This document shows, piece by piece, positions 2,157 to 28,334 of a stretch of DNA of 28,334 bases (position 1 is the first letter of the stretch; every line of letters starts with the position of its first letter). This stretch comes from a virus, in IMG/VR virus record IMGVR_UViG_3300032296_003089, positions 1 through 28,334 of that record; one strand, given 5' to 3'. The notes beneath the pieces were generated by a model. That model was not told where the DNA came from and did no database searches. It saw only the letters and a list, made by a program, of their open reading frames with translations. The translations under genes were made by a program, and so were the position numbers.

Positions 2157-2456
2157 ATGAAAGCAACAGAACTTAAAAAATTAATTCGTGAAGAAATTCA
2201 TAGAGTATTAAATGAAGGATTAACTTTTGAAGAATTAGCAACAAAGTTAGAACAAATACCATTTGATGGGGATGATTTTACTTTTTCACAAGATGATGAT
2301 ATCATATATGTGGAAGTTTTGAGTGGAGGAAATAAAAAAGCAGTTTTACTAGCTATCCAAGCAATTCTAAAAGAAAACCCAGCATATAAAATAGACCCAG
2401 AGAGTAAAGAGAAAACTCCAGATGGTAGTGTACAATTTAGTATTATCAAAAAGTAG
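2157..2456 (+). CDS. Hypothetical protein with N-terminal amphipathic targeting-type helix
   Basis: A 99-residue protein. Residues 1-20 form a charged amphipathic helix (MKATELKKLIREEIHRVLNE) followed by Gly21, so that L-N-E|G matches the (L/I)-x-E cleavage site of T4-type prohead proteases. Related leader helices begin the genes at 11295 and 27817 and, less clearly, 27023. Residues 22-99 look like a small alpha/beta domain (helix EELATKLEQI, strands FTFSQDDDIIYVEVLSG, helix KKAVLLAIQAILKE, final strand SVQFSIIKK). No enzyme motif is seen. The inference is a minor protein packaged in the capsid and processed during assembly. The 3' end is followed by a compact, structured terminator region. 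Confidence 0.7.
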   Translation: MKATELKKLIREEIHRVLNEGLTFEELATKLEQIPFDGDDFTFSQDDDIIYVEVLSGGNKKAVLLAIQAILKENPAYKIDPESKEKTPDGSVQFSIIKK

Positions 2457-2472
2457 ATAAAAAATTAAAGAA

Positions 2473-2504
2473 AACGGACTTAGGACCGTTGTAGTTTAGG
2501 CTAC
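2473..2504 (+). ncRNA. Two small hairpins before the terminator: structured 3' UTR or small RNA
   Basis: AACGG (2473-2477) pairs with CCGTT (2486-2490), and directly afterwards GTAG (2491-2494) pairs with CTAC (2501-2504). The strong terminator hairpin at 2511 follows. Three consecutive stem-loops ending in a T-tract within about 75 nt are consistent with a stable 3' UTR or a small regulatory RNA. There is no open frame here. Confidence 0.35.
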
Positions 2505-2510
2505 TTAAGG

Positions 2511-2546
2511 CCCCGATGAATTCGCTACTCATCGGGGTTCTTTTTT
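2511..2546 (+). terminator. Strong intrinsic terminator
   Basis: CCCCGATGA (2511-2519) pairs perfectly with TCATCGGGG (2529-2537) around a 9-nt loop and is followed by TTCTTTTTT. This is the clearest terminator of the front region. It separates the 99-aa gene from the next promoter-driven unit. Confidence 0.9.
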
Positions 2547-2605
2547 ATTTTATATGGTTAATTTTCAACGCTCTAACATTTTCCTGCACCTTCTCTGCGC
2601 CCTTA

Positions 2606-2637
2606 TTTGGCTCCCCAGGAAATCGGTCGTATATTTA
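2606..2637 (+). promoter_or_regulatory. Bacteroidetes-type promoter for the small membrane protein / AT-hook unit
   Basis: TTTGGCTCCCCAGG (TTTG 2606-2609), 20-nt spacer, TATATTTA (2630-2637) followed by GG. The box with its CCCCAGG extension is repeated exactly at 3162. An A-rich leader runs up to the ATG at 2662. Confidence 0.85.
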
Positions 2638-2661
2638 GGTATAAATTAAAAATAACGGGCC

Positions 2662-2826
2662 ATGGTAACAACAGCAGCATTTATTTGGATGGCATATTGC
2701 GCAGTATCACATGTACGCATTGATGCCAAAAAGAAAGGTGAAGATTTGTCATTCAAGTCTCAAGGTATTTGGTATGTTATTCAAGTGTTGTTTTACTGGG
2801 TTCTAACAGCAGCGTTCATTATTTAA
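2662..2826 (+). CDS. 54-aa small membrane protein
   Basis: A frame of 54 codons begins with ATG after an A-rich leader and ends in TAA. It has two hydrophobic stretches (TAAFIWMAYCAVSHV, residues 4-18, and GIWYVIQVLFYWVLTAAFII, 35-54) separated by a charged loop (RIDAKKKGEDLSFKS). This suggests a two-pass or hairpin inner-membrane protein with the loop in the cytoplasm. It is driven by a clear promoter and followed after 22 nt by the AT-hook gene. It resembles small phage membrane proteins of unknown role, and no specific family is recognised. Confidence 0.65.
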   Translation: MVTTAAFIWMAYCAVSHVRIDAKKKGEDLSFKSQGIWYVIQVLFYWVLTAAFII

Positions 2827-2848
2827 TAATTAAACACAAATAAAGGTT

Positions 2849-3154
2849 ATGGAACAAAAACGTCGTGGTCGCCCACCTGGGCCTAAAAAAGAAATCAAAA
2901 TGGAATTGAACACAACTACTACTACTGAACCAAAGAAACGTGGTAGAAAAGCAGTAGAAAAACCTACAATTGTATTCCCTGAAAATCCTGTTGAAGGTGA
3001 AGTTGAGGGTACAACAGTAGAAAAACTGAAGTTCATGGCTGTCCAAGTAAAACAAATGGATAAGCAACTGGACATGGAGCCGTATCGAATGGATCTTCGA
3101 ATGAAGAAACATGACGCAATTCAAAGAATGTGCCACTTGATAGGAGACTTGTAA
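2849..3154 (+). CDS. Small AT-hook DNA-binding protein
   Basis: A 101-residue basic protein. Residues 4-14 read KRRGRPPGPKK, a textbook AT-hook (core RGRP flanked by basic residues and prolines) that binds the minor groove of AT-rich DNA. A second, degenerate basic patch (KKRGRKAVEKP, about residues 28-38) may be another contact. A Thr run links the two. The C-terminal half (residues 50-101) is helical and amphipathic (VEKLKFMAVQVKQMDKQLDM) and may dimerise. AT-hooks are mainly known from eukaryotic HMGA proteins but also occur in bacterial and phage proteins. In an AT-rich phage this could be a genome-compacting or transcription-modulating protein. It is co-transcribed with the membrane protein upstream. 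Confidence 0.7.
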   Translation: MEQKRRGRPPGPKKEIKMELNTTTTTEPKKRGRKAVEKPTIVFPENPVEGEVEGTTVEKLKFMAVQVKQMDKQLDMEPYRMDLRMKKHDAIQRMCHLIGDL

Positions 3155-3161
3155 CAGGAAA

Positions 3162-3193
3162 TTTGGCTCCCCAGGAGCTTTGACGTATATTTA
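3162..3193 (+). promoter_or_regulatory. Bacteroidetes-type promoter for the DUF932 gene
   Basis: TTTGGCTCCCCAGGAG (TTTG 3162-3165), 20-nt spacer, TATATTTA (3186-3193), continuing as TAG. It is followed by an A-rich leader of about 35 nt. The -7 region also matches the TATATTTATA motif seen before structural genes. Confidence 0.85.
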
Positions 3194-3230
3194 TAGTATA
3201 AGATTAAATAATTAAATAAAAATAAAAGTT

Positions 3231-4031
3231 ATGTTAAACATTCAAAACAACACATTCCTGACAGAGTCAGAAATCAAAGCAAAAGCAAGTTCAATCTTCA
3301 CAGCTAAAGGTGCTCCAGGTACTAGTGAAAAATATGCTCACATTTCAACCGATCAAATTGTCAAAGACATGGCTAAATTGGGTTGGGGAGTAGTTGATGC
3401 TAAACAAGTACGTGCCCGTAAAGATGAGGGTTATCAAAAACACCTAGTTGTGTTCCGCAACAATGATATTGTTATCAATGGAGAAGATGGTGATCATGCT
3501 TACCCACAGATTCTACTAACTAATAGCCATGACGGTAAAAACGCATTTACTTTCACAGCTGGTTTGTTCCGTATGGTGTGTGAGAATGGTTTGGTTATTT
3601 GTTCTAAGGAGTTTGAAAATCTTAAGATTCGTCACTACGGATATGATTTTGAAGAATTGCAAAAAGTTATTGGTACAATAGTTGAAAAACTTCCACTAAC
3701 CGTTGAATCAATGAATAAGTTTAAGAAAAAGAAACTCCGTAAAACACAAATCGAAGAATTTGCTAAGAAAGCAGCTGCAATCCGATTCGGGGTAGAACAA
3801 CTTCAAAACATTACTATTGATTATAACAAGTTGATTGAACCAACTCGTGAAGAAGACAAAGGTAATGACTTGTGGAGTGTATTTAATGTGGTTCAAGAAA
3901 AACTAGTACACGGTATGTTTGAATACACAGCAGGTACTAAGTTGCGTAAAGCAAGAAAAATTAAGAACTTTAAACAAGACCTTGATTTGAATGCTAAGCT
4001 ATATGAACTTGCAGTTGAATATGCAGCTTAA
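3231..4031 (+). CDS. DUF932 family phage protein
   Basis: A 266-residue protein with the layout of DUF932/phage-plasmid-like (TIGR03299-type) proteins: an N-terminal region with YAHISTDQIVKDMAKLGW, a central strand-rich part with LVVFRNNDI and the characteristic FTFTAGLFRMVCENGLVIC (about residues 105-123), and a helical C-terminus with a stretch corresponding to W-S-V-F-N-V-V-Q-E-K. Family members are widespread in phages and plasmids; their function is not firmly established. It has its own strong promoter and a long A-rich leader, so it is probably made early and in quantity. The small downstream gene overlaps its last 11 bases. Confidence 0.8.
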   Translation: MLNIQNNTFLTESEIKAKASSIFTAKGAPGTSEKYAHISTDQIVKDMAKLGWGVVDAKQVRARKDEGYQKHLVVFRNNDIVINGEDGDHAYPQILLTNSHDGKNAFTFTAGLFRMVCENGLVICSKEFENLKIRHYGYDFEELQKVIGTIVEKLPLTVESMNKFKKKKLRKTQIEEFAKKAAAIRFGVEQLQNITIDYNKLIEPTREEDKGNDLWSVFNVVQEKLVHGMFEYTAGTKLRKARKIKNFKQDLDLNAKLYELAVEYAA

Positions 4032-4212
4032 TAATAAACAAGAATTACATCAGCTGATAAGTAAAGAGCTGAATCTAGAACCAGCTACTACCCACATAGA
4101 TGAATTGTGGGTAGTAGTTACTAGAACATTACATAAAGGAATCAACGTTTCTAAAGAGAATCTTGTTGAGTATTATTTGACATGTTGTAGGTATGACAAT
4201 CTAAAAGATTGA
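4021..4212 (+). CDS. Small hypothetical protein overlapping the DUF932 gene
   Basis: About 63 residues from the ATG that overlaps the end of DUF932 by 11 nt. An earlier in-frame ATG at 3991 would force a longer overlap and add ten residues encoded in the other gene, so I prefer this one. The product is helical (NNKQELHQLISKELNLE; THIDELWVVVTRTLHKG) and looks like a small DNA- or protein-binding domain, but no family is recognised. The frame ends one base before the first tRNA, so the tRNAs are probably on the same transcript as DUF932. Confidence 0.6.
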   Translation: MQLNNKQELHQLISKELNLEPATTHIDELWVVVTRTLHKGINVSKENLVEYYLTCCRYDNLKD

Positions 4213-4213
4213 T

Positions 4214-4337
4214 GGTCAAGTGGCGGAATTGGTAAGACGCGACAGATAGTTATAGTACTGTGGGTAAAAAAGAGAATGTGTACACATCTTGGTCCCTATA
4301 GTGGCAGCCTATGTAGGTTCGAATCCTACCTTGACTA
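4214..4337 (+). tRNA. Atypical class II (Leu-like) tRNA, anticodon unclear
   Basis: The ends are clearly a tRNA: acceptor GGTCAAG pairs with CTTGACT (one G-U), the D-arm TGGCGGAATTGGTAAGACGC is of Leu type, and the T-arm GTAGG-TTCGAAT-CCTAC is perfect. The middle is abnormal. The whole is about 124 nt instead of 85-95, the expected anticodon arm (ACAGATAGTTATAGTACTGT) pairs only with a bulge, and a further long hairpin (GGG...ATGTGTACACAT...CCC) and an ATAG...CTAT stem lie before the T-arm. If the bulged stem is real, the loop GTTATAG would carry UAU, which is odd for a Leu-type body. It may be a degenerate tRNA, one with an insertion, or a tRNA-like element. Confidence 0.6.
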
Positions 4338-4342
4338 CAAAT

Positions 4343-4416
4343 GCCCTCATAGCTCAGTTGGATAGAGCAACAGATTTCTAATCTGTCGGTCTCAGGTTCG
4401 AATCCTGATGAGGGTA
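4343..4416 (+). tRNA. tRNA-Arg (TCT)
   Basis: Complete cloverleaf: acceptor GCCCTCA/TGAGGGT (first pair G-U), D-arm AGCTCAGTTGGATAGAGC, anticodon stem ACAGA/TCTGT with loop TTTCTAA giving anticodon TCT (reads AGA), T-arm with GTTCGAATC. CCA is not encoded. AGA is the favoured arginine codon of the AT-rich structural genes here, so the tRNA plausibly supplements the host. Confidence 0.95.
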
Positions 4417-4420
4417 CTCG

Positions 4421-4442
4421 GTTTATAATATTTATTATAAAC
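4421..4442. repeat. 10-bp perfect inverted repeat
   Basis: GTTTATAATA and TATTATAAAC are perfect complements separated by TT. The pair lies between tRNA-Arg and the ATG at 4451 and contains an AATATTTAT motif at its centre. It could be an operator over a promoter for the secreted protein, or a processing site. Confidence 0.5.
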
Positions 4443-4450
4443 ACACCATA

Positions 4451-4840
4451 ATGAAAATATTAACTGTGCTTCTAGCACTACTAATAAAGGTTTCATTATA
4501 CTCTCAATACGTCCCCATAAACAAAAGATTTGATCAAGAAGAATATAGACTATTCATTCCAGGCCATAGTCATATAGTTATCGATTCACTTTATAGAACA
4601 GATCAACTCTATAAGATTAAACTAATAGAGGAAGAAGACGTCTATATTATCCAAAATAATGCTTTAAAGTTTGTTTGTGATCTTAAAGCAGGGGTGGTTG
4701 AGGTTTATTTTGATGGAAAATTTGATAGTAAATATGCTATTAAATTTTGGGATAGCTATAATTTCTTTGTAATTAGAATACCATTAGCTCGTACCTCATA
4801 CCATTTCTTTAGAGTCTACTCCCCAGATAAAGTTTGGTAA
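4451..4840 (+). CDS. Small secreted (periplasmic) protein of unknown function
   Basis: A 129-residue protein. Residues 1-19 are a Sec signal peptide: MK, hydrophobic core ILTVLLALLIKVSL, then YSQ, with cleavage likely after Gln19. The ...SQ ending is typical of Bacteroidetes exported proteins. There is no lipobox cysteine. The mature part (about 110 residues) is strand-rich with many aromatics (HSHIVIDSLYRTDQLYKIKL, VEVYFDGKF, YNFFVIRIPL) and resembles small beta-sheet domains, but I recognise no family. It is inserted between tRNA genes and carries its own AT-rich upstream element. Exported phage proteins of this size can act in superinfection exclusion or lysis; this is an inference from location only. 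Confidence 0.7.
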   Translation: MKILTVLLALLIKVSLYSQYVPINKRFDQEEYRLFIPGHSHIVIDSLYRTDQLYKIKLIEEEDVYIIQNNALKFVCDLKAGVVEVYFDGKFDSKYAIKFWDSYNFFVIRIPLARTSYHFFRVYSPDKVW

Positions 4841-4873
4841 TTTAAAATTTATTTATTATATTGTTCTATATTA

Positions 4874-4947
4874 GCACCTTTAGCTCAATCGGTTAGAGCA
4901 ACTGACTCATAATCAGTAGGTCGCAGGTTCGATTCCTGCAAGGTGCA
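4874..4947 (+). tRNA. tRNA with CAT anticodon (Met or lysidine-modified Ile2)
   Basis: Complete cloverleaf: acceptor GCACCTT/AAGGTGC perfect, D-arm AGCTCAATCGGTTAGAGC, anticodon stem ACTGA/TCAGT with loop CTCATAA giving anticodon CAT, T-arm GCAGG-TTCGATT-CCTGC. CCA is not encoded. The acceptor lacks the C-A mismatch of an initiator, so it is an elongator Met or, after TilS modification, Ile (AUA). The heavy AUA use in this window makes the second reading attractive. Confidence 0.93.
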
Positions 4948-4970
4948 CTAAAAAGTAAGTTATTAAAATA

Positions 4971-4976
4971 AAGGAG
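4971..4976 (+). promoter_or_regulatory. Shine-Dalgarno-like site, unusual for this window
   Basis: AAGGAG lies 9 nt before the ATG at 4986. Nearly all other starts here lack any such sequence and have A/T-rich leaders, as usual in Bacteroidetes. Confidence 0.5.
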
Positions 4977-4985
4977 AAACAAATT

Positions 4986-5390
4986 ATGGAAACAACATCT
5001 TTCGTTTTAGGTATGCTCTCGATTATTGCAGTTGCTTTTATGGCTGTGATTGTTTGGGGTATAGTTAAGATTAATAAGTTAACATCTGAAGTAACCTCTA
5101 CTCATAAATGGATAGATAATACTGTTCAAGATAGGGATCATCAACTTCAGCAAATCTATAAAAGATTTGATGAACAGGATCGTACTCATAATAATGATTT
5201 TGAACGATCGTATAATCATATAACAGCAAATTTTGATCATTTAGATCGAAAAATTAATGAACAAGAACGTGCTATGTCTCTTGAATTTGAACGAGCTTAT
5301 AACCAAATAGCTGAGTGTCGCTCATATACAGACTCACGTATAGATAAAGTATTAAGTATAAATAGTACTAAACAATTAATTAAAGGATAA
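4986..5390 (+). CDS. Membrane-anchored coiled-coil protein
   Basis: A 134-residue protein. Residues 5-28 form one transmembrane helix (SFVLGMLSIIAVAFMAVIVW). The remaining about 100 residues are a long charged coiled coil with an internal repeat: FDEQDRTHNNDFERSYNHI is echoed by a segment containing EQERAMSLEFERAYNQI about 35 residues later. The likely topology is N-terminal anchor with a cytoplasmic or periplasmic rod. No catalytic motif is present. Similar anchored coiled coils in phages include spanin-like and exclusion proteins, but the sequence is not diagnostic. It is one of the few genes here with a Shine-Dalgarno-like site and is followed by a strong terminator, so it closes the tRNA region. 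Confidence 0.7.
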   Translation: METTSFVLGMLSIIAVAFMAVIVWGIVKINKLTSEVTSTHKWIDNTVQDRDHQLQQIYKRFDEQDRTHNNDFERSYNHITANFDHLDRKINEQERAMSLEFERAYNQIAECRSYTDSRIDKVLSINSTKQLIKG

Positions 5391-5412
5391 TAATAATTTC
5401 GACTTACTTTTT

Positions 5413-5438
5413 AAAGCGGCTTTTAGCCGCTTTTTTTC
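5413..5438 (+). terminator. Strong intrinsic terminator
   Basis: AAGCGGCT, loop TTT, AGCCGCTT form a perfect 8-bp GC-rich stem followed by TTTTTC. It ends the tRNA/coiled-coil unit about 20 nt after the stop codon. Confidence 0.92.
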
Positions 5439-5472
5439 TTATTACATTACAATATGTATAAAGTATGAGTAC

Positions 5473-5486
5473 GTGGTTTAAACCAC
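5473..5486. promoter_or_regulatory. 14-bp perfect palindrome, candidate operator
   Basis: GTGGTTTAAACCAC is a perfect palindrome in the intergenic space between the terminator and the gene at 5518, about 20 nt upstream of the AATATTTATAA motif. Its placement suits a dimeric repressor or activator site. Confidence 0.45.
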
Positions 5487-5504
5487 CTAAAATTCGCTTA
5501 TTTT

Positions 5505-5515
5505 AATATTTATAA
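5505..5515 (+). promoter_or_regulatory. AATATTTATAA motif, candidate late promoter
   Basis: An exact copy of the recurrent motif, ending 2 nt before the ATG at 5518. No TTTG box lies 20 nt upstream. If it is a -10-type element, the transcript would be leaderless or nearly so. Confidence 0.5.
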
Positions 5516-5517
5516 GT

Positions 5518-5946
5518 ATGGATTTAAACAAAATATTTAAGTTATTCGGTTCTTCTGATAAAGAAGAAGAACATAAAGAAGTAGTTACACAAGTTGATTT
5601 ATCTGAAAGTCCAATGATGTGGATTGGTATGTTTAAACGAATGATTACTAATTATGAAACATTTGCAAAACAACTAATCCAATTCTTTAAATCATCAGAA
5701 CCTTCCCTGGATATGGAGGAGGTAGAGAGGGCTAGTAGTTACATGGTTTATGATAAGGCGTATAATCATTTAGCTAAATTAGACTTAACCAACACCACCC
5801 ATCTTGATAGTTTACAATTACTTTCAGATGAAACATTTGAATTTGTCCTAAACAAGGCATTGCTATACTTTGAAAGTGTAGAAGAATATGAAAGATGTTT
5901 GTTTCTAAAACAAATCCAGGACAAAGTAAATTCTTTTCAAAAGTAA
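5518..5946 (+). CDS. Hypothetical 142-aa helical protein
   Basis: A 142-residue protein. The first about 35 residues are polar and acidic (FGSSDKEEEHKEVV). The rest is helical with many aromatics and acidic residues (MMWIGMFKRMITNYETFAKQ; FEFVLNKALLYFESVEEYER). No membrane segment or enzymatic motif is seen, and I recognise no family. It stands alone between a terminator and the promoter at 5947, with its start set by the AATATTTATAA motif only 2 nt before the ATG. Its size and all-alpha nature would suit a small accessory virion or assembly protein, but this is a guess. Confidence 0.65.
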   Translation: MDLNKIFKLFGSSDKEEEHKEVVTQVDLSESPMMWIGMFKRMITNYETFAKQLIQFFKSSEPSLDMEEVERASSYMVYDKAYNHLAKLDLTNTTHLDSLQLLSDETFEFVLNKALLYFESVEEYERCLFLKQIQDKVNSFQK

Positions 5947-5978
5947 TTTGGAGTACACAATCCTATTTAGTATAGTAT
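5947..5978 (+). promoter_or_regulatory. Weaker host-type promoter for the HD/sigma operon
   Basis: TTTGGA (TTTG 5947-5950), exactly 20 nt, then TATAGTAT (5971-5978). The spacing is the same as in the clear promoters but the -7 box is imperfect. It lies about 75 nt upstream of the ATG at 6054, and the run of overlapping genes to 8000 could start here. Confidence 0.45.
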
Positions 5979-6053
5979 AAGTACGGGTTTTGAAAATAGA
6001 ATAAGAAAAAAGAGGTGTAAATGTATCCTCGGTTATTAACAAAATAAAATGAT

Positions 6054-6257
6054 ATGAAACATAGAAACAGTATTTTACATGAACTCAATAAAATTGAGGG
6101 ATTAACTAATCAACTTAACTTTATTGTTAACCAACAACAGCCAATTGAAGAATACAAGGCTGCTCTAGAACGTATTAGAGAATCAATTGAACAAGCTAGA
6201 GCATATGTTGAAAGTGAGCCGGTTGATGGTTATGAATTAAATGTTGCCGCACGATGA
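6054..6257 (+). CDS. Small coiled-coil protein
   Basis: A 67-residue, all-helical, charged protein with heptad-like spacing (LHELNKIEGLTNQLNFIV, then EEYKAALERIRESIEQARAY). It probably forms a short coiled-coil hairpin or dimer. There is no membrane segment. Its stop overlaps the start of the HD-domain gene (ATGA), so translation is coupled and the protein may be a partner of that enzyme. A long A-rich leader precedes the ATG. Function unknown. Confidence 0.65.
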   Translation: MKHRNSILHELNKIEGLTNQLNFIVNQQQPIEEYKAALERIRESIEQARAYVESEPVDGYELNVAAR

Positions 6258-7021
6258 AATTAACAGCAGAACAAATCCAAGACAATTGGAACAAATTTTT
6301 GTCTATCATTGATGAGCATATTTCTGAACCTAGATGTTCTGGGTTGAAAGCATTTTATGAGCAGTATGCTGAACGTATTATGCTTATGCCTGCTTCTCAT
6401 AAAAAAGAATATCATAATGCATTCCCAGGCGGTTATGTGGATCACGTGTTACGAGTAGTACAATGTGCTCTTAAACTAAATAAAGTATGGGTAGAAATGG
6501 GAGTAGACACCTCAACATACACAGTTGAAGAATTAGTATTTGCTTCTTTAAACCATGACCTAGGTAAAATGGGAGATGAACAAAATGAATCATACATCCC
6601 CCAGACAGACCAATGGCGTAAAGAGAAACTAGGTGAAGACTATAAATTCAACGATCGACTTGAATACATGTCAGTACCAGATCGTGGATTACATTTACTC
6701 ATGTCTCACGGTGTTACATTCTCCAGAAACGAAATGTTAGCAATCAAGTTACATGATGGTCTATATGATGATGCTAACAAGCCATATTTAATGTCTTGGT
6801 CCCCAGAAACAAAACCACGTACTGCATTAGTGTTTATTGTGCATCAAGCGGATTTAATGGCAGCACGTATTGAATTCGAACAAGTATGGATGCCTAAACT
6901 TAAAGGTGAAGTAACTCAAAGCAATCCATCAAACTTTACTATTAAAGAAAAAAAAACTAAAACTAAGGCTTTAGGTAGTATTAAAAGTGAAGGATTAAAA
7001 AGTTTATTAGATAATATATGA
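6254..7021 (+). CDS. HD-domain metal-dependent phosphohydrolase
   Basis: A 255-residue protein with the hallmarks of the HD superfamily: His64 in GGYVDHVLRV, the paired His101-Asp102 in LNHDLGKMGD, His152 in LMSHG, His167-Asp168 in KLHDG, and His197/Asp200 in VHQADLMAAR. These would coordinate one or two metal ions. HD enzymes hydrolyse nucleotides, cyclic dinucleotides or RNA 3' ends; the spacing and the HQAD ending recall YhaM-type and other phage HD hydrolases, but the substrate cannot be read from sequence. The C-terminus is lysine-rich (KEKKTKTKALGSIKSEG) and may bind nucleic acid. It lies in an operon with the late sigma factor. Roles in nucleotide turnover, or in removing defence signalling nucleotides, are possible and unproven. 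Confidence 0.85.
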   Translation: MKLTAEQIQDNWNKFLSIIDEHISEPRCSGLKAFYEQYAERIMLMPASHKKEYHNAFPGGYVDHVLRVVQCALKLNKVWVEMGVDTSTYTVEELVFASLNHDLGKMGDEQNESYIPQTDQWRKEKLGEDYKFNDRLEYMSVPDRGLHLLMSHGVTFSRNEMLAIKLHDGLYDDANKPYLMSWSPETKPRTALVFIVHQADLMAARIEFEQVWMPKLKGEVTQSNPSNFTIKEKKTKTKALGSIKSEGLKSLLDNI

Positions 7022-7293
7022 TGATAGCTATTGTTATATTAAGTTTAATGGTTGTGATCTTAGGATACACAACCTTTAACTTACTTAGAAAAAATGAAAA
7101 GCAAGAAGATATTCTAATGGGGTATATGTCTTACTTAAATAAAGTATCTGATATAATCGAAATGTCAGATAAAAAACTTAAAGAAGTAGATGCTAAAGAA
7201 TCATTTAAATCAGATGATGAGGTGGGTTTTTTCTTTGAGTCTATTAAACAAATCCAAAGTGTACTAAATCAGTTTAATATTAAAAATTTATGA
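7018..7293 (+). CDS. Small membrane-anchored helical protein
   Basis: A 91-residue protein with an N-terminal transmembrane helix (IAIVILSLMVVILGYTTFNL, residues 3-22), then a positively charged turn (LRKNEKQ) and an amphipathic helical region (YLNKVSDIIEMSDKKLKEVD). It is translationally coupled to both neighbours: ATGA overlap with the HD gene, and its stop overlaps the sigma-factor start. Single-anchor proteins of this size are often found next to replication or transcription genes in T4-like phages without known role. The orientation is probably N-out, C-in, by the positive-inside rule. Confidence 0.65.
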   Translation: MMIAIVILSLMVVILGYTTFNLLRKNEKQEDILMGYMSYLNKVSDIIEMSDKKLKEVDAKESFKSDDEVGFFFESIKQIQSVLNQFNIKNL

Positions 7294-8000
7294 GTAGTGA
7301 AGTAGTGGTAAAGCCAAAAACTAGTGGGATGTATTTTACTCAAGAAACAGAAAATGCTATTATTGAATATAATAATACTTTAGATTTTGAATTAAGAAGT
7401 AAAATATATCATGATCGAATTCACTATGCGTTTTTTAAATTAACCGAAAACATCATTCATACTTTTAAGTTTTATTATACTGAGGTGAGTAATATTGAGG
7501 ATTTACAACATGAAGTAATTTCATTTTTGCTTTCTAAAATCCATTTATTTGATCCAAGTAAAGGAGCTAAAGCATATTCATATTTTGGTACTATTGCTAA
7601 ACGTTATCTTATTATTTCTAATACTAAAAACTATAAAAAACGAGTAGACAAAGCACCAATTGAAGAACTTGAGTCTGATGGAAAATATAGTTACTCCTTA
7701 TCAGATGATCCTGTAGATAAACTTTCTTTATTTTTAGATGAATTTACAAACTATTGTTCTCAACATATATATGAACTTTTCCCTAAAGAAGGAGATGCTA
7801 AAATAGCAGATGCTATTCTAGAATTATTCCGTAAAAGAGAGAGTATAGAGATCTTTAATAAAAAAGCACTGTATATATACATCCGAGAGATAATTGATGT
7901 TAAAACCCCTAAAATCACTAAAATAGCAAATAAATTATATGATATGTTTAAAGAACATTATTATTTTTATTTGGAAAATGGTTATACAAATTTTCCATAA
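7290..8000 (+). CDS. gp55-like late RNA polymerase sigma factor
   Basis: A 236-residue protein. Residues 67-110 match the region-2 core of phage sigma factors related to T4 gp55: IEDLQHEVISFLLSKIHLFD, then PSKG and AYSYFGTIAKRYLI, which corresponds to the core-polymerase-binding and -10-recognition helices. A linker and a helical C-terminus follow (residues 140-236). As in gp55, a full region 4 for -35 recognition is not evident. Such factors redirect host RNA polymerase to late promoters with only a -10-like box. This fits the AATATTTATAA motif in front of many genes that follow. The start is set by the ATGA-type overlap with the upstream membrane-protein gene. Confidence 0.8.
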   Translation: MSSEVVVKPKTSGMYFTQETENAIIEYNNTLDFELRSKIYHDRIHYAFFKLTENIIHTFKFYYTEVSNIEDLQHEVISFLLSKIHLFDPSKGAKAYSYFGTIAKRYLIISNTKNYKKRVDKAPIEELESDGKYSYSLSDDPVDKLSLFLDEFTNYCSQHIYELFPKEGDAKIADAILELFRKRESIEIFNKKALYIYIREIIDVKTPKITKIANKLYDMFKEHYYFYLENGYTNFP

Positions 8001-8002
8001 TC

Positions 8003-8010
8003 ATATTTAT
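8003..8010 (+). promoter_or_regulatory. ATATTTAT motif at the head of the structural module
   Basis: CATATTTATGG lies directly after the sigma-factor stop and 15 nt before the ATG at 8026. It would start the large tail/baseplate transcript if the motif is the late promoter. Confidence 0.45.
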
Positions 8011-8025
8011 GGATAAATAAATATA

Positions 8026-8367
8026 ATGAATGGTTTAGATAATATTGTATTTGGTGGTAAAAAATTTTCTGATATATTAGAAGAGATATATAATAATCAA
8101 AAGAAAAAAGAAAAACAAATCTCTGCTCTAATAGCAGAACTTAAGCCATTAGTGAACGAGATAGGAGACGCTACTTTAATTGTTCCTCTAATTAAAGAAT
8201 ACTTAGAAATAAGTGTTAAAAATGATGAACAATTAATTAAGATGGCTACTATTATTCAACGTATTATGAGTAATAACGGAACTGCTGACGGTGGTTTTGG
8301 TATTTCTGAAGAAGAAAAAGCTCAATTATTAGCTGAAATAGATAAGTTTAAAGATGGAGGTGAGTAA
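8026..8367 (+). CDS. Hypothetical 113-aa helical protein at the head of the tail module
   Basis: A 113-residue helical protein (FSDILEEIYNNQKKKEKQIS; LKPLVNEIGDATLIVPLIKE) with a glycine/aspartate-rich linker (NNGTADGGFGIS) before a final helix ending DKFKDGGE. There is no membrane segment or enzymatic motif. The stop shares one base with the start of the spike-like gene, so the two are coupled. Position and size suggest a small baseplate or assembly protein, for example a chaperone of the spike or hub; no family is recognised. Confidence 0.65.
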   Translation: MNGLDNIVFGGKKFSDILEEIYNNQKKKEKQISALIAELKPLVNEIGDATLIVPLIKEYLEISVKNDEQLIKMATIIQRIMSNNGTADGGFGISEEEKAQLLAEIDKFKDGGE

Positions 8368-11281: not shown

Positions 11282-11292
11282 AATATTTATAA
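11282..11292 (+). promoter_or_regulatory. AATATTTATAA motif, candidate late promoter
   Basis: An exact copy of the motif lies between two structural genes and ends 2 nt before the ATG at 11295, the same spacing as at 5505. Confidence 0.5.
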
Positions 11293-11294: not shown

Positions 11295-11639
11295 ATGAAA
11301 ACAGATATGTTAAAAAAGTTAATTAAAGAAGCAGTTCGTGAAGCAATTCAAGAAGAAATTAAAGATATACTTCTTGAAGCTGTGCGTTCTCCTAAAACTG
11401 TAGTTAATGAGAATGCTACCCCTATCCCTTACACTACAAAACCAACAACTATCAACCCAGATATTAAACGTAATTTACGTAGCATGATTGGTGGTGAATT
11501 TGATGCTACTATAACAGCTAATTCATTTCACGCACAACCTGCTTACACTCCACCTCCAGTTAGTACAACAAGTGAAGGCTCAAGTTTACCAGGTGGCGAA
11601 GTAAGTTTAGATCAAATAATGGGATTAATGACTAAATAA
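11295..11639 (+). CDS. Small protein with capsid-targeting-type N-terminal helix
   Basis: A 114-residue protein. Residues 1-28 are an amphipathic helix (MKTDMLKKLIKEAVREAIQE, then EIKDILLE) followed by Ala29, giving L-L-E|A, the cleavage pattern of T4-type prohead protease. The remainder is Pro/Thr/Ser-rich and probably disordered (VNENATPIPYTTKPTTINPD; AYTPPPVSTTSEGSS), with a short C-terminal helix (LDQIMGLMTK). Its helix closely resembles that of the gene at 2157. It sits between baseplate genes and its stop overlaps the gp25 start by one base. Either a scaffolding-like or packaged protein, or a baseplate accessory; the first fits the leader better. Confidence 0.65.
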   Translation: MKTDMLKKLIKEAVREAIQEEIKDILLEAVRSPKTVVNENATPIPYTTKPTTINPDIKRNLRSMIGGEFDATITANSFHAQPAYTPPPVSTTSEGSSLPGGEVSLDQIMGLMTK

Positions 11640-22055: not shown

Positions 22056-22066
22056 TACATTAAAAT

Positions 22067-23059: not shown

Positions 23060-23063
23060 ATGA

Positions 23064-23948
23064 ATGGGTGCTTTCAAATCATTAACAAGTCAAGATATTA
23101 TTGTATCTCCTTTAGTAGTATATGGGGATTTTAAAAGTTCTCCTACTATTACTTTTTTAAAAGGTAAAAACACAACCTATGGCTCTAGTAATGATGAAAC
23201 AAACCCATCCCCATGGCCTTCAGCTTCATTAGTATATGCTTCTATAAAACAATTATATTATAGTAATACTTTTCCTAATGATCCTCAACCTTATATTGTA
23301 ACTGATAGTCAAGGAAATGTAGTTGAAGGTAGTCAAACTGCTAATGTTAATAGCAGATATGATAATTTTTTACAAAGTGGCCTTTACCCAGTTAAAAATT
23401 TCCCAACTGGAGCAAATGATATAATATCTGTAGGTATTATACCTCAATCATTATTTGGAGACTATATAAAACCAGGCAGTGTTGAATTTTTCTCATCAAC
23501 TGATTATTATGATGATGGTCAAGGAAATATAAAAAATGATAATGATATATATATAGGTAATATAATTTATACTCATGGTATAATAATTATAACAAACCAA
23601 ACCTATGCTTCTGATACAGGAGATATTGATGTAACTTTTACCCCATCAACAACAGTATATGAAACTCAATATAAATGCACTATCAGACCAGATGAATTTA
23701 ATTATTCGTTAAACCCAACTTTACTATCAGGATCTGAATTTACTAACCCTGTAAATTCAAATGGTTTACCTGTAAACACTAGTGGTGATGTAGTTGATTT
23801 TGTAACAGGTTCTGCTTTTGCCCCGTATGTAACAACAGTAGGACTTTATAATACAAATAATGAGTTATTAGCTGTAGGTAAATTAGCTCAACCTATACCT
23901 ACAAGTAGAACGGTTGATATGAATATAGTTATTAATATAGATAGATAA
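23064..23948 (+). CDS. Tandem structural paralogue 3 (divergent)
   Basis: A 294-residue protein, the most divergent of the four. Shared traits are the start (FKSLTSQDIIVSPLVVYGDF), a PGSVEFFS strand in place of PGSLQI, HGIIIITNQ in place of PDVGVIIL, RPDEFNYSLNPTLLSG in place of ARNAEFNYSxNP, and the ending YVTTVGLYNTNNELLAVGKL followed by AQP. The last strand has changed to NIVINIDR. An aspartate-rich loop (DYYDDGQGNIKNDNDIY, about residues 151-167) is unique to this copy and could bind metal. The start lies 4 nt after the stop of paralogue 2, so translation is probably coupled. Confidence 0.6.
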   Translation: MGAFKSLTSQDIIVSPLVVYGDFKSSPTITFLKGKNTTYGSSNDETNPSPWPSASLVYASIKQLYYSNTFPNDPQPYIVTDSQGNVVEGSQTANVNSRYDNFLQSGLYPVKNFPTGANDIISVGIIPQSLFGDYIKPGSVEFFSSTDYYDDGQGNIKNDNDIYIGNIIYTHGIIIITNQTYASDTGDIDVTFTPSTTVYETQYKCTIRPDEFNYSLNPTLLSGSEFTNPVNSNGLPVNTSGDVVDFVTGSAFAPYVTTVGLYNTNNELLAVGKLAQPIPTSRTVDMNIVINIDR

Positions 23949-23949
23949 T

Positions 23950-24786
23950 ATGTCATTAACAAGAATAGCACCTGAGGATTTTGTTTTTAGCAATGATTCT
24001 ATTCCAACATCATGTTGGAGAGATGAGAATGGTAATCCTGCAGGTAGTATATCAACAACCCCTTCTTGGGATCAACAAACATTCACCAATGGTGTAACCA
24101 ATTTTTATATTGGAAACCCAGGGAATATACAGTTTGGTTTAACTACTGCTAATAAAAATGCTGCTGATGGTACTATAACCAGACAAATGTATGGAGCTAT
24201 TCGTAATATAGTAGTTGGGGATACTAATGCTGATATTAGATGGAATAACACAGCTCAATCACAATTTAATGTTATAGCTGTATCTAAAAATATTCCTCTC
24301 CCTCTTTTACCTGGAAGCCTACGGATAGGAGCACGAACCGATGATAGTAAAATAAACCCACCAACAATTTTAAATTGCGGTAGGGCTTATAACTTAGTTA
24401 CTGGTATTACTATATCTGGGGGGGGTTTTAGCTTTGGTTCTGGAACATCACCTTCAGGTCTTTTTCTTCCTGATGTAGGATTAATTATAGGAACATCTCT
24501 TTCAGTTAATACTTTTATTTTAAATACTTTAAATCCAACCCCAACAAATCGTGTTTTTATAAGAGCCCGAAATAACCAATATAACTACTCTATGAACCCA
24601 AGTTTCATTTCAGGTAGTTCGGGAAAAATAATAAATCAAGATTGGTATGATAATCCTCAGACATATATTACAACTGTTGGTTTATACAATGATAATAATG
24701 AATTAATGGCTACAGCTAAACTCCCTAGACCATATAATAAAAACTTTAATAATGAGTTATTAATGCAAGTAGGCTTAAACTTTTAA
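23950..24786 (+). CDS. Tandem structural paralogue 4
   Basis: A 278-residue protein, shortest of the four. It begins MSLTRIAPEDFVFSNDS, keeps RQMYGAIRNIVVGD, LPGSLRIGA, GLFLPDVGLIIG, RARNNQYNYSMNPSFISGSS, and ends YITTVGLYNDNNELMATAKL followed by PRPYNKNF and MQVGLNF. One Cys-Trp pair (SCWRDENG) occurs early. A glycine-rich strand (ISGGGFSFGSGTSPSG) replaces the GSGSFG of copies 1 and 2. It closes the structural module; the next gene is a nuclease 3 nt downstream. The role is inferred as virion protein from the cluster. Confidence 0.62.
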   Translation: MSLTRIAPEDFVFSNDSIPTSCWRDENGNPAGSISTTPSWDQQTFTNGVTNFYIGNPGNIQFGLTTANKNAADGTITRQMYGAIRNIVVGDTNADIRWNNTAQSQFNVIAVSKNIPLPLLPGSLRIGARTDDSKINPPTILNCGRAYNLVTGITISGGGFSFGSGTSPSGLFLPDVGLIIGTSLSVNTFILNTLNPTPTNRVFIRARNNQYNYSMNPSFISGSSGKIINQDWYDNPQTYITTVGLYNDNNELMATAKLPRPYNKNFNNELLMQVGLNF

Positions 24787-24789
24787 AAT

Positions 24790-25266
24790 ATGAATAATTG
24801 GTTTTGGTATGAAAATGTGGAAGTCAAAGAATTTAAAACAATAGAAGATTTTCCACAAGATTGTTTTGGTTTTATATATGAAATCAAAAACACAATAACA
24901 GGTAAATTTTACATTGGTAAAAAAAGTCTTTATCATAATATAAAGAAAAAACTCACCAAAAAAGAACTAGCTGAACAATCAGGTCCTGGCAGAAAAGCAA
25001 CTACTAAAAGAATACAAAAAGAATCTGATTGGGCTACATATTGGGGTTCTAATAAAGAAATATTAGAAGAAATAAAAACAAACGGTAACTTAGCATTTAC
25101 TAGAAAAATTATTAAAATGGTAAGAACCAAAAAAGAACTAACTTATTGGGAAACAGCCTACCAGTGCAAGTGTAATGTATTATTTGTGAACAGTTATAAT
25201 GATAATGTACTAGGAAAATTTTTCAAAAAAGACTTTGCTCCTAATGCTCTCCTTCATACATTATAG
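24790..25266 (+). CDS. SegE-like GIY-YIG homing-type endonuclease
   Basis: A 158-residue protein with a GIY-YIG layout of the SegE type: FGFIYEIKN (residues 26-34) and KFYIGKKSL (39-47) for the GIY and YIG strands, an intervening basic segment (KKKLTKKELAEQSGPGRKAT), then WATYWGSNKEILEEI (81-95), where the YWGS turn is typical, and a helix ELTYWETAYQ whose Glu121 is the probable catalytic acid. It would cut DNA with a single metal ion. SegA-SegE of T4 are free-standing homing endonucleases that spread between related phages. This one lies between the structural cluster and primase with only 3 nt on either side, so it is well integrated. An intact active site is seen; activity is inferred. Confidence 0.75.
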   Translation: MNNWFWYENVEVKEFKTIEDFPQDCFGFIYEIKNTITGKFYIGKKSLYHNIKKKLTKKELAEQSGPGRKATTKRIQKESDWATYWGSNKEILEEIKTNGNLAFTRKIIKMVRTKKELTYWETAYQCKCNVLFVNSYNDNVLGKFFKKDFAPNALLHTL

Positions 25267-25269
25267 TGT

Positions 25270-26202
25270 ATGGTAAATCAGTTGTTGATAACTTTAGTAG
25301 ACTCTGTTTTAGGTAAAGGTAAAAATACCTCTAAAAATAACAGAGCATACCATTGTCCATTTTGTAAACATCATAAACCTAAACTTGAGGTTAATATGGA
25401 TACAAATGCTAAAGGTGACAATCCTTGGCATTGTTGGGTATGTAATACTAAAGGTAGAAAATTAACTCGTTTATTCAAACATGTAGAGGTTACACCTGAT
25501 AAACTTCAATCTCTGTACTCATTAGTAGGTACTTCTAAATCAGAACATACTGATGTTAATTTAGAGCAGGTTAAACTACCTGAAGAATTTATTCCATTAA
25601 TTGATGTGACATCTAATAATCTTATTGGTAGACGCGCTTTAGCTTACCTAAAACGTCGTGGTATTACTAAATATGATATTCTAAAATACAATATTGGTTA
25701 TTGTGAACATGGGCCTTATTCTAATATGGTTGTTATACCCTCATATGATGAAAAAGGTAATTTAAATTATTTTACCTCTAGAGGATTTGAAGAATTTTCT
25801 AGATCCAAATATAAGAATCCAAATGTATCAAGAAACATTGTTCCATTTGAATTTTTTATAAATTGGAATGTACCTATCATTTTATGTGAAGGCCCATTTG
25901 ATATGATGGCTATTAAACGTAATGTAATACCATTGCTAGGTAAAAACATCCAGGACAAATTAAAGAAAAAACTAGTTACCTCACAGGTACAAAAAATATA
26001 TATAGCATTAGATAAAGATGCAATTAAACAAGCTTTATCATTTTGTGAAGAATTATTAAATGAGGGTAAAGAAGTATATTTAGTAGAATTAAAAGATAAA
26101 GACCCAAGTGAAATGGGTTTTGAAAATTTTACTAAGTTAATTCAAACCACTCAACCATTAACCTTCTCAAATTTATTTGAGAAAAAACTAGAACTAGTAT
26201 GA
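25270..26202 (+). CDS. DNA primase (T4 gp61-like)
   Basis: A 310-residue protein with the order expected for a phage primase: an N-terminal zinc-binding domain with CPFC (Cys29, Cys32) and CWVC (Cys55, Cys58) around a strand-loop of about 22 residues, a linking helical region with AYLKRRGITKYDILKYNIGY (126-144), a core with VVIPSYDEKGNLNYFTSRGF, and a Toprim fold with IILCEGPFDMMAI (Glu207, 203-215) and YIALDKDA (Asp248, Asp250). It makes RNA primers for lagging-strand synthesis, with a replicative helicase not seen in this window. The length is near that of T4 gp61 (342). The stop overlaps the start of the nuclease gene (ATGA). Confidence 0.87.
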   Translation: MVNQLLITLVDSVLGKGKNTSKNNRAYHCPFCKHHKPKLEVNMDTNAKGDNPWHCWVCNTKGRKLTRLFKHVEVTPDKLQSLYSLVGTSKSEHTDVNLEQVKLPEEFIPLIDVTSNNLIGRRALAYLKRRGITKYDILKYNIGYCEHGPYSNMVVIPSYDEKGNLNYFTSRGFEEFSRSKYKNPNVSRNIVPFEFFINWNVPIILCEGPFDMMAIKRNVIPLLGKNIQDKLKKKLVTSQVQKIYIALDKDAIKQALSFCEELLNEGKEVYLVELKDKDPSEMGFENFTKLIQTTQPLTFSNLFEKKLELV

Positions 26203-26969
26203 GTACAATAAAACACTCTTATAATCGAATTTTAGAAATATCTGACGATCATAAGCAAATCACATTACCCGACTCTAGATTTTATAGACGAAACGGTAAT
26301 TATTATCCATCTGTGACTTATGTATTAAGTTATTACCCAAAAGGTAAATTTTTTGAAGATTGGCTTAAGAAAGTAGGTTACGCTGCTGAACATATTGTTA
26401 AAAAAGCAGCTGAAGAAGGTACTCAAGTCCATGAAATGATTGAAGAGTATTTAAATGGGGCTGAATTAAAATTCTTATCACCTCAAGGTTACCCACAATA
26501 TAATCCTGAAGTATGGCAAATGTTTTTACGTTTTGTAGAATTTTGGGAAACCCATAAACCTAAACTTATTGAAACCGAAGTACACCTATTCTCAGACGAA
26601 TTAAAAGTAGCAGGCACTTGTGATATGGTTTGTGAGATAAATGATGAATTATGGGTTATAGATTTTAAAACATCTAACCAAATCCAGACTACATACGAAT
26701 TACAAACCGCAGTTTACACTCAATGTTACAAAGAGTGTTATGGAAAAGAAGCTCAACGTAATGGAATACTATGGTTAAAATCATCTAAACGTGGTCCTAA
26801 AAAAGATAAAATGCAAGGTAAAGGATGGGAAATAGTTGAACCGGAACGTACATTTGAGGAAAACATTGAAATATTCAAAACGGTACGTAAATTATTTGAT
26901 CTGGAAAACCCAACATCATCACCTTCATTTGAATCGTTCCGAACTACTGCAAAACGGGAAGACATTTAA
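26199..26969 (+). CDS. PD-(D/E)XK nuclease, RecB/Cas4-like exonuclease
   Basis: A 256-residue protein with the motif series of RecB-type nucleases: GTQVHEMIEEYL (His78), LIETEVHLFS (Glu126), VAGTCDMVCEI (Asp142), LWVIDFKTSN (Asp155-x-Lys157) and YELQTAVYTQCY (Gln169). These residues form the metal-dependent active site. No four-cysteine iron-sulfur cluster of true Cas4 is visible. In phages such enzymes act in recombination, end processing or degradation of host DNA. The coupling to primase (4-nt overlap) points to replication or recombination. The N-terminal 60 residues (SVTYVLSYYPKGKFFEDWL) resemble the usual entry region of this family in phages. Confidence 0.85.
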   Translation: MSTIKHSYNRILEISDDHKQITLPDSRFYRRNGNYYPSVTYVLSYYPKGKFFEDWLKKVGYAAEHIVKKAAEEGTQVHEMIEEYLNGAELKFLSPQGYPQYNPEVWQMFLRFVEFWETHKPKLIETEVHLFSDELKVAGTCDMVCEINDELWVIDFKTSNQIQTTYELQTAVYTQCYKECYGKEAQRNGILWLKSSKRGPKKDKMQGKGWEIVEPERTFEENIEIFKTVRKLFDLENPTSSPSFESFRTTAKREDI

Positions 26970-26978
26970 TATTTATAA
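26968..26978 (+). promoter_or_regulatory. AATATTTATAA motif after the nuclease gene
   Basis: An exact motif copy overlapping the nuclease stop codon, 44 nt before the kinase ATG. A second, variant copy (27010) lies closer to that ATG. Confidence 0.45.
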
Positions 26979-27009
26979 TAAAAGACTTGGCTTGGCCAAC
27001 ATTCTGCAT

Positions 27010-27020
27010 TATATTTATAT
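27010..27020 (+). promoter_or_regulatory. TATATTTATAT motif 2 nt before the kinase start
   Basis: A variant motif copy ending 2 nt before the ATG at 27023, the same spacing as at 5505 and 11282. The gap before it holds GACTTGGCTTGGCCAAC, a TTGGCCAA palindrome of unknown role. Confidence 0.4.
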
Positions 27021-27022
27021 AG

Positions 27023-27820
27023 ATGATAAGACTAACCGATTTACTTAAAGAAATGATAAATAACCCGAAAGCTATTATTATGGCTGGAGGAGCATCAGTC
27101 GGTAAATCAACAGTACTAAAATCGTTACAACCCGTATTAAAAGGATTTGTAGACTTAAATGCTGACAAATATGTTGAAGATAAAGATTCTCCAATGTATG
27201 GTAATTTATCTGCTGCCTCTGTTCAAATAAGAAAAACGGATTTACCTAACGCTGTTGACAACCAACAAAATCTTATTTACGATACTACTGCTTCTAATTT
27301 ATCTACGTTACAACCAACTTTGGATAAATTAAATGATATGGGATACGAAACCATGATGATAATGGTTTATGCTCATCCAATAATATCATTTTTAAGAAAC
27401 TATAAACGTGAACGTAAGGTACCAGCAGTTGGTGTTTTAGGAACATGGGCTAATGTTTATAATTTGTTAGAAGATTATAAACGTATTTTTGGTGATAATT
27501 TTGTTTTAGTTAATACACCTGCCTCTGAAGAAGAACAAACCGAAATAAATAATTTTGAAACAGCTTATCAACAAGGCAAATTAAAAGAATACTTCTCAGA
27601 CTTACTAGCTTCAGGTCAATTTCAATCAACTTTTAGAAAAGATGATTCAACCTTATCACCTGAGGAATTAGAAAAAAGAGAAAAAGACAGAGCTAAAACT
27701 AAAGTTACTTTAGATAAAAGCATAGATAAAATAGCTGATACTTATGATAGTATTCAAGCTAATTTAAATCCTGTTGATAGCAAAGAGTTACCTAACATAG
27801 TTAAAAAATTTGTTGGATGA
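27023..27820 (+). CDS. Zeta-toxin-like P-loop kinase
   Basis: A 265-residue protein. After a ten-residue leader (MIRLTDLLKE) comes a P-loop: AIIMAGGASVGKSTVLKSL, with Walker A at residues 22-30. Next is FVDLNADKYVEDKDSPMYGN (Asp44/Asp48, the position of zeta-toxin substrate residues), then NLIYDTTASNLSTLQPTLDK with the usual D-T-T, a strand YETMMIMVYAHP and an arginine-bearing helix (FLRNYKRERKVPAVGV) that would form the lid. Zeta-type kinases phosphorylate UDP-sugars or other small molecules; phage members are known but substrates vary. The C-terminal 80 residues are charged and helical. The leader resembles T4 internal-protein leaders (L-x-E at residue 10), suggesting packaging. It overlaps the next gene by 4 nt. 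Confidence 0.75.
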   Translation: MIRLTDLLKEMINNPKAIIMAGGASVGKSTVLKSLQPVLKGFVDLNADKYVEDKDSPMYGNLSAASVQIRKTDLPNAVDNQQNLIYDTTASNLSTLQPTLDKLNDMGYETMMIMVYAHPIISFLRNYKRERKVPAVGVLGTWANVYNLLEDYKRIFGDNFVLVNTPASEEEQTEINNFETAYQQGKLKEYFSDLLASGQFQSTFRKDDSTLSPEELEKREKDRAKTKVTLDKSIDKIADTYDSIQANLNPVDSKELPNIVKKFVG

Positions 27821-28334
27821 AATCATTAGTAAAATCACTTATAACACCGTTTTTGTCTGAAGCTGATATACCTGAATCTAATAAAATAGTAGGTGTATTT
27901 GGAGGTGGTTTTCAACCACCAACAAAAGGTCATTTTGAAGTAGTTAGAAAAGCTTTAGAAATGTACCCTCAATTAACCGAATTTAATCTTTACGTTGGTA
28001 CAGGTGGCGATAGATCACAAGGTGTAATAATTCAAGAACAATCAGTAGCCATTTGGGACATATATAAAAATTATTTACCTAGTAAAGTAAATATTATCCC
28101 ATCTTCAAATCCAATTTCATCTATTTATTCTTATGCTAAAGATAAACCAGATGTTCAAATTAAATGGTTTTTAGGCTCTAGAGAAGATAAACCAGAAGAT
28201 TTTGTTGATTTTGAAAAACGTACTAAATCTGCTTTAGGTAAAACAAATATTGAACCTATTAATATTATAACAACAGGTGGTGTTAGTGGTACTAAAGCTA
28301 GAGCAGTATTAGATAATAAAAAAGAATTTTTTAA
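27817..28334 (+). CDS. NMNAT/cytidylyltransferase-like enzyme, cut by window end
   Basis: 172 codons are visible and the frame is open at the last base. Residues 24-40 (IVGVFGGGFQPPTKGHF) are the nucleotidyltransferase signature, with Thr36-x-Gly-His39 in place of the usual H-x-G-H. Residues 153-165 (TGGVSGTKARAVL) correspond to the ISSTxxR motif that binds the nucleotide phosphates. The fold therefore adds AMP or CMP to a small phosphorylated substrate; NMN adenylyltransferase is a candidate, but the substrate cannot be read here. Residues 1-15 form a helical leader (MKSLVKSLITPFLSE) followed by Ala16, giving L-S-E|A, a prohead-protease-type site. It is translationally coupled to the zeta-like kinase, so the two may work on linked substrates. 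Confidence 0.75.
   Translation, partial: MKSLVKSLITPFLSEADIPESNKIVGVFGGGFQPPTKGHFEVVRKALEMYPQLTEFNLYVGTGGDRSQGVIIQEQSVAIWDIYKNYLPSKVNIIPSSNPISSIYSYAKDKPDVQIKWFLGSREDKPEDFVDFEKRTKSALGKTNIEPINIITTGGVSGTKARAVLDNKKEFF

Follow-up and report, generated by a model that had tools for sequence, protein, structure and literature searches.

Leaders that direct phage proteins into the head have been described, in the literature that we found, for T4, P1, and giant phages. In T4, the internal proteins (IPs) IPII and IPIII both start MKTYQEFIAE/A and IPI starts MKTFKEFTSTTTPVSTITE/A, where the slash denotes the cut, placed here from the motif. According to the available text of PMC9026906, residues 4 and 7 of IPIII matter for its targeting, residues 8 and 10 matter for its processing, and targeting leaders have already been proposed to let T4-like phages load varied proteins. 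We describe four N-termini of this kind encoded by IMG/VR record IMGVR_UViG_3300032296_003089; the window analysed is this whole record, 28,334 bases long, classed as linear, with a G+C content of 31%. The genes start at positions 2157, 11295, 27023, and 27817. We put at roughly 0.78 the probability that the N-termini of 2157, 27023, and 27817, and less surely that of 11295, are capsid-targeting propeptides processed by a gp21-type protease, and that the proteins behind them form a swappable cargo set.

In the proposed mechanism, the leader would be an amphipathic helix of one to three octads, with hydrophobic residues at positions -6, -3, and -2 relative to a glutamate at position 0, and it would bind the prohead core. 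A gp21-type protease would cut after L/I-x-E; the leader would leave, and the mature protein would stay in the head and be ejected together with the DNA. The leader would thus act as a swappable module, with a few types present on many unrelated small proteins and enzymes. Once delivered, these proteins might contribute to early host takeover, as a previous sequence-only reading of this DNA suggested. The evidence consists of the leaders themselves, their modularity, a sharp boundary behind one class of them, a spacing shared with T4, and a prohead protease and capsid protein in relatives.

Four N-termini and the T4 spacing

All four genes lie on the plus strand. The open reading frame (ORF) at 2157..2456 encodes a 99-residue protein in which a 20-residue leader (2157-2216, MKATELKKLIREEIHRVLNE/G) precedes an orphan mature part, and the 114-residue protein at 11295..11639 begins with a 28-residue leader-like helix (11295-11378, ...ILLE/A). 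The gene at 27023..27820 encodes a Zeta-toxin-like P-loop kinase (PF06414, 6.6e-13, above the cut-off) with a 10-residue leader (27023-27052, MIRLTDLLKE/M). At 27817..28334, in a frame still open at the window end, lies a nucleotidyltransferase of NadD/PPAT-like fold with a 15-residue leader (27817-27861, MKSLVKSLITPFLSE/A). The N-termini and sites agree with those first read from the sequence: VLNE/G at residue 20 of 2157, ILLE/A at 28 of 11295, FLSE/A at 15 of 27817, and LLKE/M at 10 of 27023. The ends LNE, LLE, LSE, and LKE all have the L/I-x-E form, as claimed. With respect to the T4 IP range of 10-19 residues, the leaders of 27023 (10) and 27817 (15) fall inside, that of 2157 (20) is one residue above, and that of 11295 (28) is outside.

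The likeness to T4, which the sequence-only reading had proposed, extends to the spacing of residues. Hydrophobic residues at -6, -3, and -2 with glutamate at 0 are common to the T4 IPs and all four window leaders (L4 L7 L8 E10 in 27023; I9 F12 L13 E15 in 27817; I14 V17 L18 E20 in 2157; I22 I25 L26 E28 in 11295), and this spacing equals that of the T4 capsid targeting sequence (CTS), which has been mapped by experiment. In the longer leaders, it recurs with a period of eight residues: at E12 and E20 in the 20-residue class to which 2157 belongs, and at E12, E20, and E28 in 11295.

We turned this spacing into a rule: hydrophobic residues at -6, -3, and -2, a glutamate, and no P, G, or C before the site. 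The rule was devised after the leaders had been seen; therefore, contrasts with internal methionines and with a control phage weigh more than the p value. Within the window, it picks 4 of 42 ORFs (2157, 11295, 27023, and 6254), compared with 0.6 on average and 4 at most over 200 shuffles; 27817 fails because of P11, and 6254 probably passes by chance. The evidence from the window by itself is modest, and the strength comes from relatives. Across eight contigs including the window, the rule accepts 86 of 1004 N-termini versus 23 of 2437 internal methionines (odds ratio 9.8, p 1e-27). In Flavobacterium phage immuto, by its gp6-like protein the nearest named phage, the corresponding counts are 18/230 and 4/661; in a crAss-like phage used as a negative control, they are 1/117 and 5/509.

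The boundary itself can be seen where a protein occurs with and without a leader. Five contigs read I-x-E/GGNVF after a leader such as MISLIKLLHEVLIDE, and the immuto homologue of this protein starts M/GGNVF, with stop codons upstream. In addition, an 806-residue fusion (G010:5249) carries a leader-like SLIKPFIEGE directly before an internal nucleotidyltransferase domain. Long multi-domain proteins were also noted at L177:5249-7669, in immuto gp088 (L217:7131-9854), and at L001:10001-12073; they combine nucleotidyltransferase-like parts with a HEMIHH metallopeptidase-like motif and, in some, a zinc-ribbon-like stretch. They may be cargo polyproteins that are cut at internal sites.

Leader classes on unrelated proteins

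The sequence-only reading envisaged a single common leader. We find at least three types: one class that holds 2157 and 11295, a second that holds 27023, and a type of its own on 27817. The class of 2157 has the consensus MKKSELKQIIKEEI.KVLNE/, with 2157 as a member and 11295 as a longer variant. A scan of IMG/VR with a degenerate DNA pattern for K.[ST][EQ]L[KQ][QK][IL]I[KR]EE[IL], unanchored and with no start codon in it, recovered at least 120 stretches; the counts that follow for this class refer to the matches listed. The ORF start lies within 12 residues of the motif in 135 of 147 matches, and an ATG stands one codon upstream in 10 more, which places 145 of 147 at or near protein starts. 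Two proteins, L227 and L228, carry the motif at their extreme C-terminus; the C-terminus of T4 Alt is likewise processed (PMC9026906, available text).

We compared 124 distinct ATG-preceded proteins after removal of the leader. Seven with mature parts shorter than 25 residues were dropped before clustering, and the remaining 117 fell into 94 mutually unrelated clusters, 78 of them singletons. The searched pattern ends at residue 14, and conservation extends beyond it through residues 16-20: among the 94 representatives, L18 is present in 63, E20 in 68, and [LI]18 together with E20 in 64. Information reaches 2.04 bits at residue 20, drops to 0.58 at residue 21, and stays at 0.09-0.28 over residues 22-32. 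Conservation thus ends sharply after L-x-E20. The earlier proposal that one leader is shared by otherwise unrelated proteins, enzymes included, holds within classes: at least 94 clusters carry the 20-residue leader and 33 carry the 10-residue leader described below. Such sharing is seen for these two classes and not for the leader of 27817.

A profile was built from 90 of the 94 representatives, with those identical over the first 20 residues to a test-genome protein excluded. It gives 43.9 for 2157, 12.1 for 11295, and -36.3 for the next best of the 42 window ORFs; the top score is -18.3 among 91 internal methionine positions and -2.3 among 8,400 shuffled N-termini. In two long relatives, the proteins scoring above every internal methionine and shuffled N-terminus number 7 of 241 (G010, 163 kb) and 5 of 229 (G011, 161 kb). 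The score of 27817 is -46.7 and 27023 falls outside the 16 best listed, so that neither belongs to the 20-residue class; this misfit rules out one leader for all four proteins.

A search with the 2157 protein found two loci that match residues 1-21 only, with unrelated remainders, and both have a T4-type prohead protease on the same contig. The mature part of 2157 matched no PHROG or Pfam family and had no homologue among the related-loci ORFs compared. A tblastn search of named phages with P0001 and with a leader peptide gave no match, for short queries that are possibly below the reach of the method. The 94 representatives gave only a small number of Pfam and PHROG matches, most of them weak (16 and 14 families, respectively, at E <=0.01, nearly all with a single member), so that the leader offers a first handle on unknown phage proteins. 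Two of the matches, each below its cut-off, are Tox-ART-HYD1 (0.0056) and Tpt1-like (0.00037); a PDB sequence search with the Tox-ART-HYD1-matching protein found nothing, and an ADP-ribosyltransferase identity for these proteins is only suggestive. ADP-ribosyltransferase is the activity of T4 Alt. Openings of a Y/F-H-x-T-like form, reminiscent of the ADP-ribosyltransferase fold, were noted in four leader proteins (L326:10754-11170, L169:5547-5927, L346:1822-2901, and L254:884-1312), only two of which have a weak Pfam match.

The kinase at 27023 was rated the weaker case by the sequence-only reading; its support has turned out to be better, since it is a member of a second shared leader class. 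Its start, MIRLTDLLKE/M, appears in relatives as MIKLTDLLKE/. At locus L213, the kinase and an unrelated NT5C-type deoxyribonucleotidase carry the identical ten residues MIKLTDLLKE, and at L002, L004, and L008, the kinase and NT5C leaders differ by one or two residues. We counted this class in 13,604 ORFs from loci chosen as relatives or as leader-bearing. For the pattern MI[KRS]Lxx[LI][LI]xE, 97 distinct sequences have it no more than 20 residues from the ORF start and 3 have it farther in; the class spans 33 unrelated clusters. When E10 is left out of the pattern, 30 of 39 clusters still show this glutamate. Among further cargo with 10-residue leaders, a nucleotidyltransferase and a DUF2608 protein score above their Pfam cut-offs, and Tpt1-like, alpha/beta-hydrolase, and zinc-ribbon matches lie below theirs. 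Kinases that match 27023 in other phages start MIPFILKE/G (HTVC008M) and MKTFAELQE/G (Methylophilales phage Melnitz-2). A third motif, MQKLAG[IL]I[TS]E, mostly preceded by a few residues, occurs in at least 49 clusters, counted after 9 of 80 proteins shorter than 40 residues were dropped.

The leader of 27817 is kept in all 9 aligned sequences, with S or A at residue 14 and an invariant E15; L009 was excluded from this alignment (A1) because its match begins at residue 28. In the predicted structure (mean pLDDT 71), pLDDT stays below 50 over residues 1-19, and residue 24 opens the first strand; the best PDB matches of the model are NadD- and PPAT-type nucleotidyltransferases. With an hhalign probability of 96.6, the cyanophage cytidyltransferase T4-GC190 is a homologue of this protein. 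Members from P-RSM1, S-ShM2, and P-SSM4 (3 of 6 cyanophages) start MKKFS[TA]F[IL][SK]E/A. According to the available text of Sullivan et al. 2010 (PMC3037559), the T4-GC190 protein was newly detected in purified S-SM1 virions. This detection, which concerns a homologue in another phage, is the closest experimental support that we found.

Protease, upstream element, and genomic setting

The record is probably a fragment of a phage genome. It contains T4-like myovirus baseplate genes (gp25-like and gp6-like), and the gp6-like protein is 49% identical over its full length to that of immuto. By gene order, the window end corresponds to the immuto stretch between primase and the terminase, portal, protease, and capsid genes. 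The sequence-only reading predicted a prohead protease in the genome: a gp21-type protease is present in related contigs, and a PF03420 search of the window fragment gave no match. PF03420 was found in two sets of records: in 7 of 19 that are related or leader-bearing, and in 13 of 48 from the leader-scan matches listed; the latter sample comprised 50 of the at least 120 stretches and was partly picked as long contigs. All six contigs above 150 kb that were searched have it (2/2 and 4/4 in the two sets). Of the 35 records in which the T4-type capsid protein gp23 was sought as well, 11 contain it, and these are the 11 with PF03420; for a further record, G078 (159.9 kb), the search covered gp23 alone. 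The profile of the relatives' protease matches T4 gp21 (5jbl) at 1.2e-28, with PF03420 above the cut-off, and three aligned proteases keep the histidine of ELDHP and the serine of SSRG, which we take to be catalytic residues of the gp21-type protease. PF03420 or gp23 matches are broken by one to three TGA codons in G040 and G041 (the contigs of L282 and L286), which suggests that these leader-bearing phages translate TGA as an amino acid.

Leader genes are also enriched for an upstream element, defined as TATTTATA or ATATTTAT within 60 bases upstream of the gene. Among the matches listed, it precedes 41 of 104 genes of the 20-residue class, 35 of 83 of the MQKLAG type, and 17 of 52 of the 10-residue class, versus 278 of 2111 other genes at the same loci. 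Its reverse complement is rarer (3, 5, 1, and 62 occurrences, respectively). In G010, it precedes 7 of 10 leader genes versus 32 of 222 others, and in G011, only 3 of 9 versus 37 of 211 (pooled p 4e-4). In the window, TATTTATA stands directly upstream of 11295 (11284..11291, plus strand) and of 27023 (27012..27019, plus strand), and the element also precedes 5518, 14016, 20311, and 21390. Further copies of TATTTATA at 3188, 5507, 14001, 20296, 21363, and 26970 lie mostly directly upstream of coding-strand ORFs. The element is putatively a late promoter. It is found before tail and baseplate genes as well; together with the enrichment at leader genes, this fits late synthesis and packaging.

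Gene 11295 adjoins the gp25-like gene in the baseplate cluster. Its glutamate E28 is kept in all 74 homologues aligned (74 of 88 were used, those with a start-like N-terminus). AlphaFold2 predicts a helix over residues 2-31 and the rest at low confidence, a model that is uninformative on function. It is the weakest leader case among the four, and it could be a baseplate protein whose helix resembles a leader.

Two other features of the window were noted. A tRNA-Arg gene at 4343-4417 is 86% identical to a tRNA-Arg gene of the crAss-like phage cr126_1; when bases 1-25000 were compared with phage records by megablast, this was the sole match. The product of the ORF at 24790-25266 (GFIYEIKN...FYIGKKS) resembles a GIY-YIG endonuclease.

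Rival readings and known systems

Several observations weigh against capsid-targeting propeptides. Among T4-GC190 members, those of P-HM1, S-H9-1, and Syn1 (3 of 6 cyanophages) have no leader, and those of pelagiphage HTVC008M and Pseudomonas phage Deifobo have no leader site. In the 20-residue class, 21 of 124 proteins among the matches listed have no hydrophobic-x-E at residues 15-30; the MQKLAG motif is internal or terminal in longer ORFs, which start more than 40 residues upstream, in 16 of 80 cases. Conservation in 11295 runs past the proposed cut to about residue 37, where a variable linker follows. The spacing rule accepts probable non-cargo, such as the N-terminus of the G011 terminase and window ORF 6254, and 2157 and 27817 have no upstream element. 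Finally, PF03420 was found in none of three records of 100-150 kb nor in a 98.8-kb record; these may be fragments.

Among the rival explanations, a chance resemblance of lysine- and glutamate-rich amphipathic N-termini in an AT-rich phage is extremely improbable: the window counts are indeed small, with as many picks in the most extreme shuffle as in the real window, but the held-out profile separates cleanly and the excess at N-termini across contigs is absent from the crAss-like control. For the two shared classes, chance is ruled out by the boundary, profile, and N-terminus counts. The helices might instead be uncut docking or oligomerisation tags for tail or baseplate, membrane, or a host structure, with L-x-E as a mere helix pattern. 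We regard this as quite unlikely, because conservation stops after E20 across at least 94 unrelated proteins, the glutamate is retained in most clusters of the 10-residue class, the leader-less immuto homologue starts exactly at the boundary, and the spacing equals that of T4; in its favor are the place of 11295 among baseplate genes, its conservation past the site, and the C-terminal or internal copies of the 20-residue and MQKLAG motifs among the matches listed.

A closer rival accepts targeting and cleavage, and holds that most of these proteins are assembly or core parts and not injected effectors. It draws on T4, where core proteins are likewise gp21 substrates (PMC9026906, available text), on rule-positive genes near capsid genes that are scaffold-like, such as G011:154344, and on mature parts that, in most matches listed, have no known domain. 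We consider it doubtful: several of the proteins have enzyme domains (the Zeta-like kinase, NT5C, and nucleotidyltransferases), the diversity of mature parts is unlike that of a structural part, and the similarly leadered IPs and Alt of T4 are ejected (PMC9026906, available text). Processed, capsid-targeting propeptides on a swappable cargo set are our preferred reading. Whether they belong to a general virion cargo system, in which interchangeable octad-code leaders would sit on almost any small protein and a changing effector set would be injected, seems to us an even bet. The code of this system would be one to three repeats of hydrophobic-x-x-hydrophobic-hydrophobic-x-E-x, and the load of each virion would be at least 10 effectors, such as nucleotide- or NAD-type enzymes, kinase-like proteins, and ADP-ribosyltransferase-like proteins. 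If true, the breadth of cargo would be comparable to bacterial secreted-effector repertoires.

The leader could serve as a sequence-only tag for proteins that are probably carried in the virion and delivered at infection, and it makes the cargo-loading proposal for T4-like phages (PMC9026906, available text) directly testable. It also puts new leaders on offer for protein delivery in phage heads. In the literature covered, which did not include preprints, we did not find these leader families, their octad structure, or their spread over many proteins described.

Known systems share parts of this arrangement. The cyanophage T4-GC190 proteins have a domain homologous to that of 27817 and, in half of the six phages, a T4-like leader of 10 residues; its letters differ, and the other half lack it. 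In P1, the N-terminal 30 residues of DarB direct head entry for delivery, whereas no consensus is reported for Dar N-termini in the available text (PMC9024508). In phiKZ-like phages and SPN3US, a gp21-related protease likewise cuts after glutamate and cargo is ejected; the SPN3US propeptides, unlike those here, are mostly longer than 100 residues with an A-x-E motif, and a short shared leader module is not described in the available text (PMC5694885). The T4 CTS of IPI-III and the Alt propeptide are the closest match: a short N-terminal propeptide ending in L/I-x-E, unrelated mature parts, a gp21-type protease (here in relatives), and equal hydrophobic-glutamate spacing. The present leaders, known from sequence alone, differ from the T4 CTS in their letters, in the octad repeats of the 20- and 28-residue forms, and in their reach, with three or more leader types spread over numerous protein families (at least 94, 33, and at least 49 clusters).

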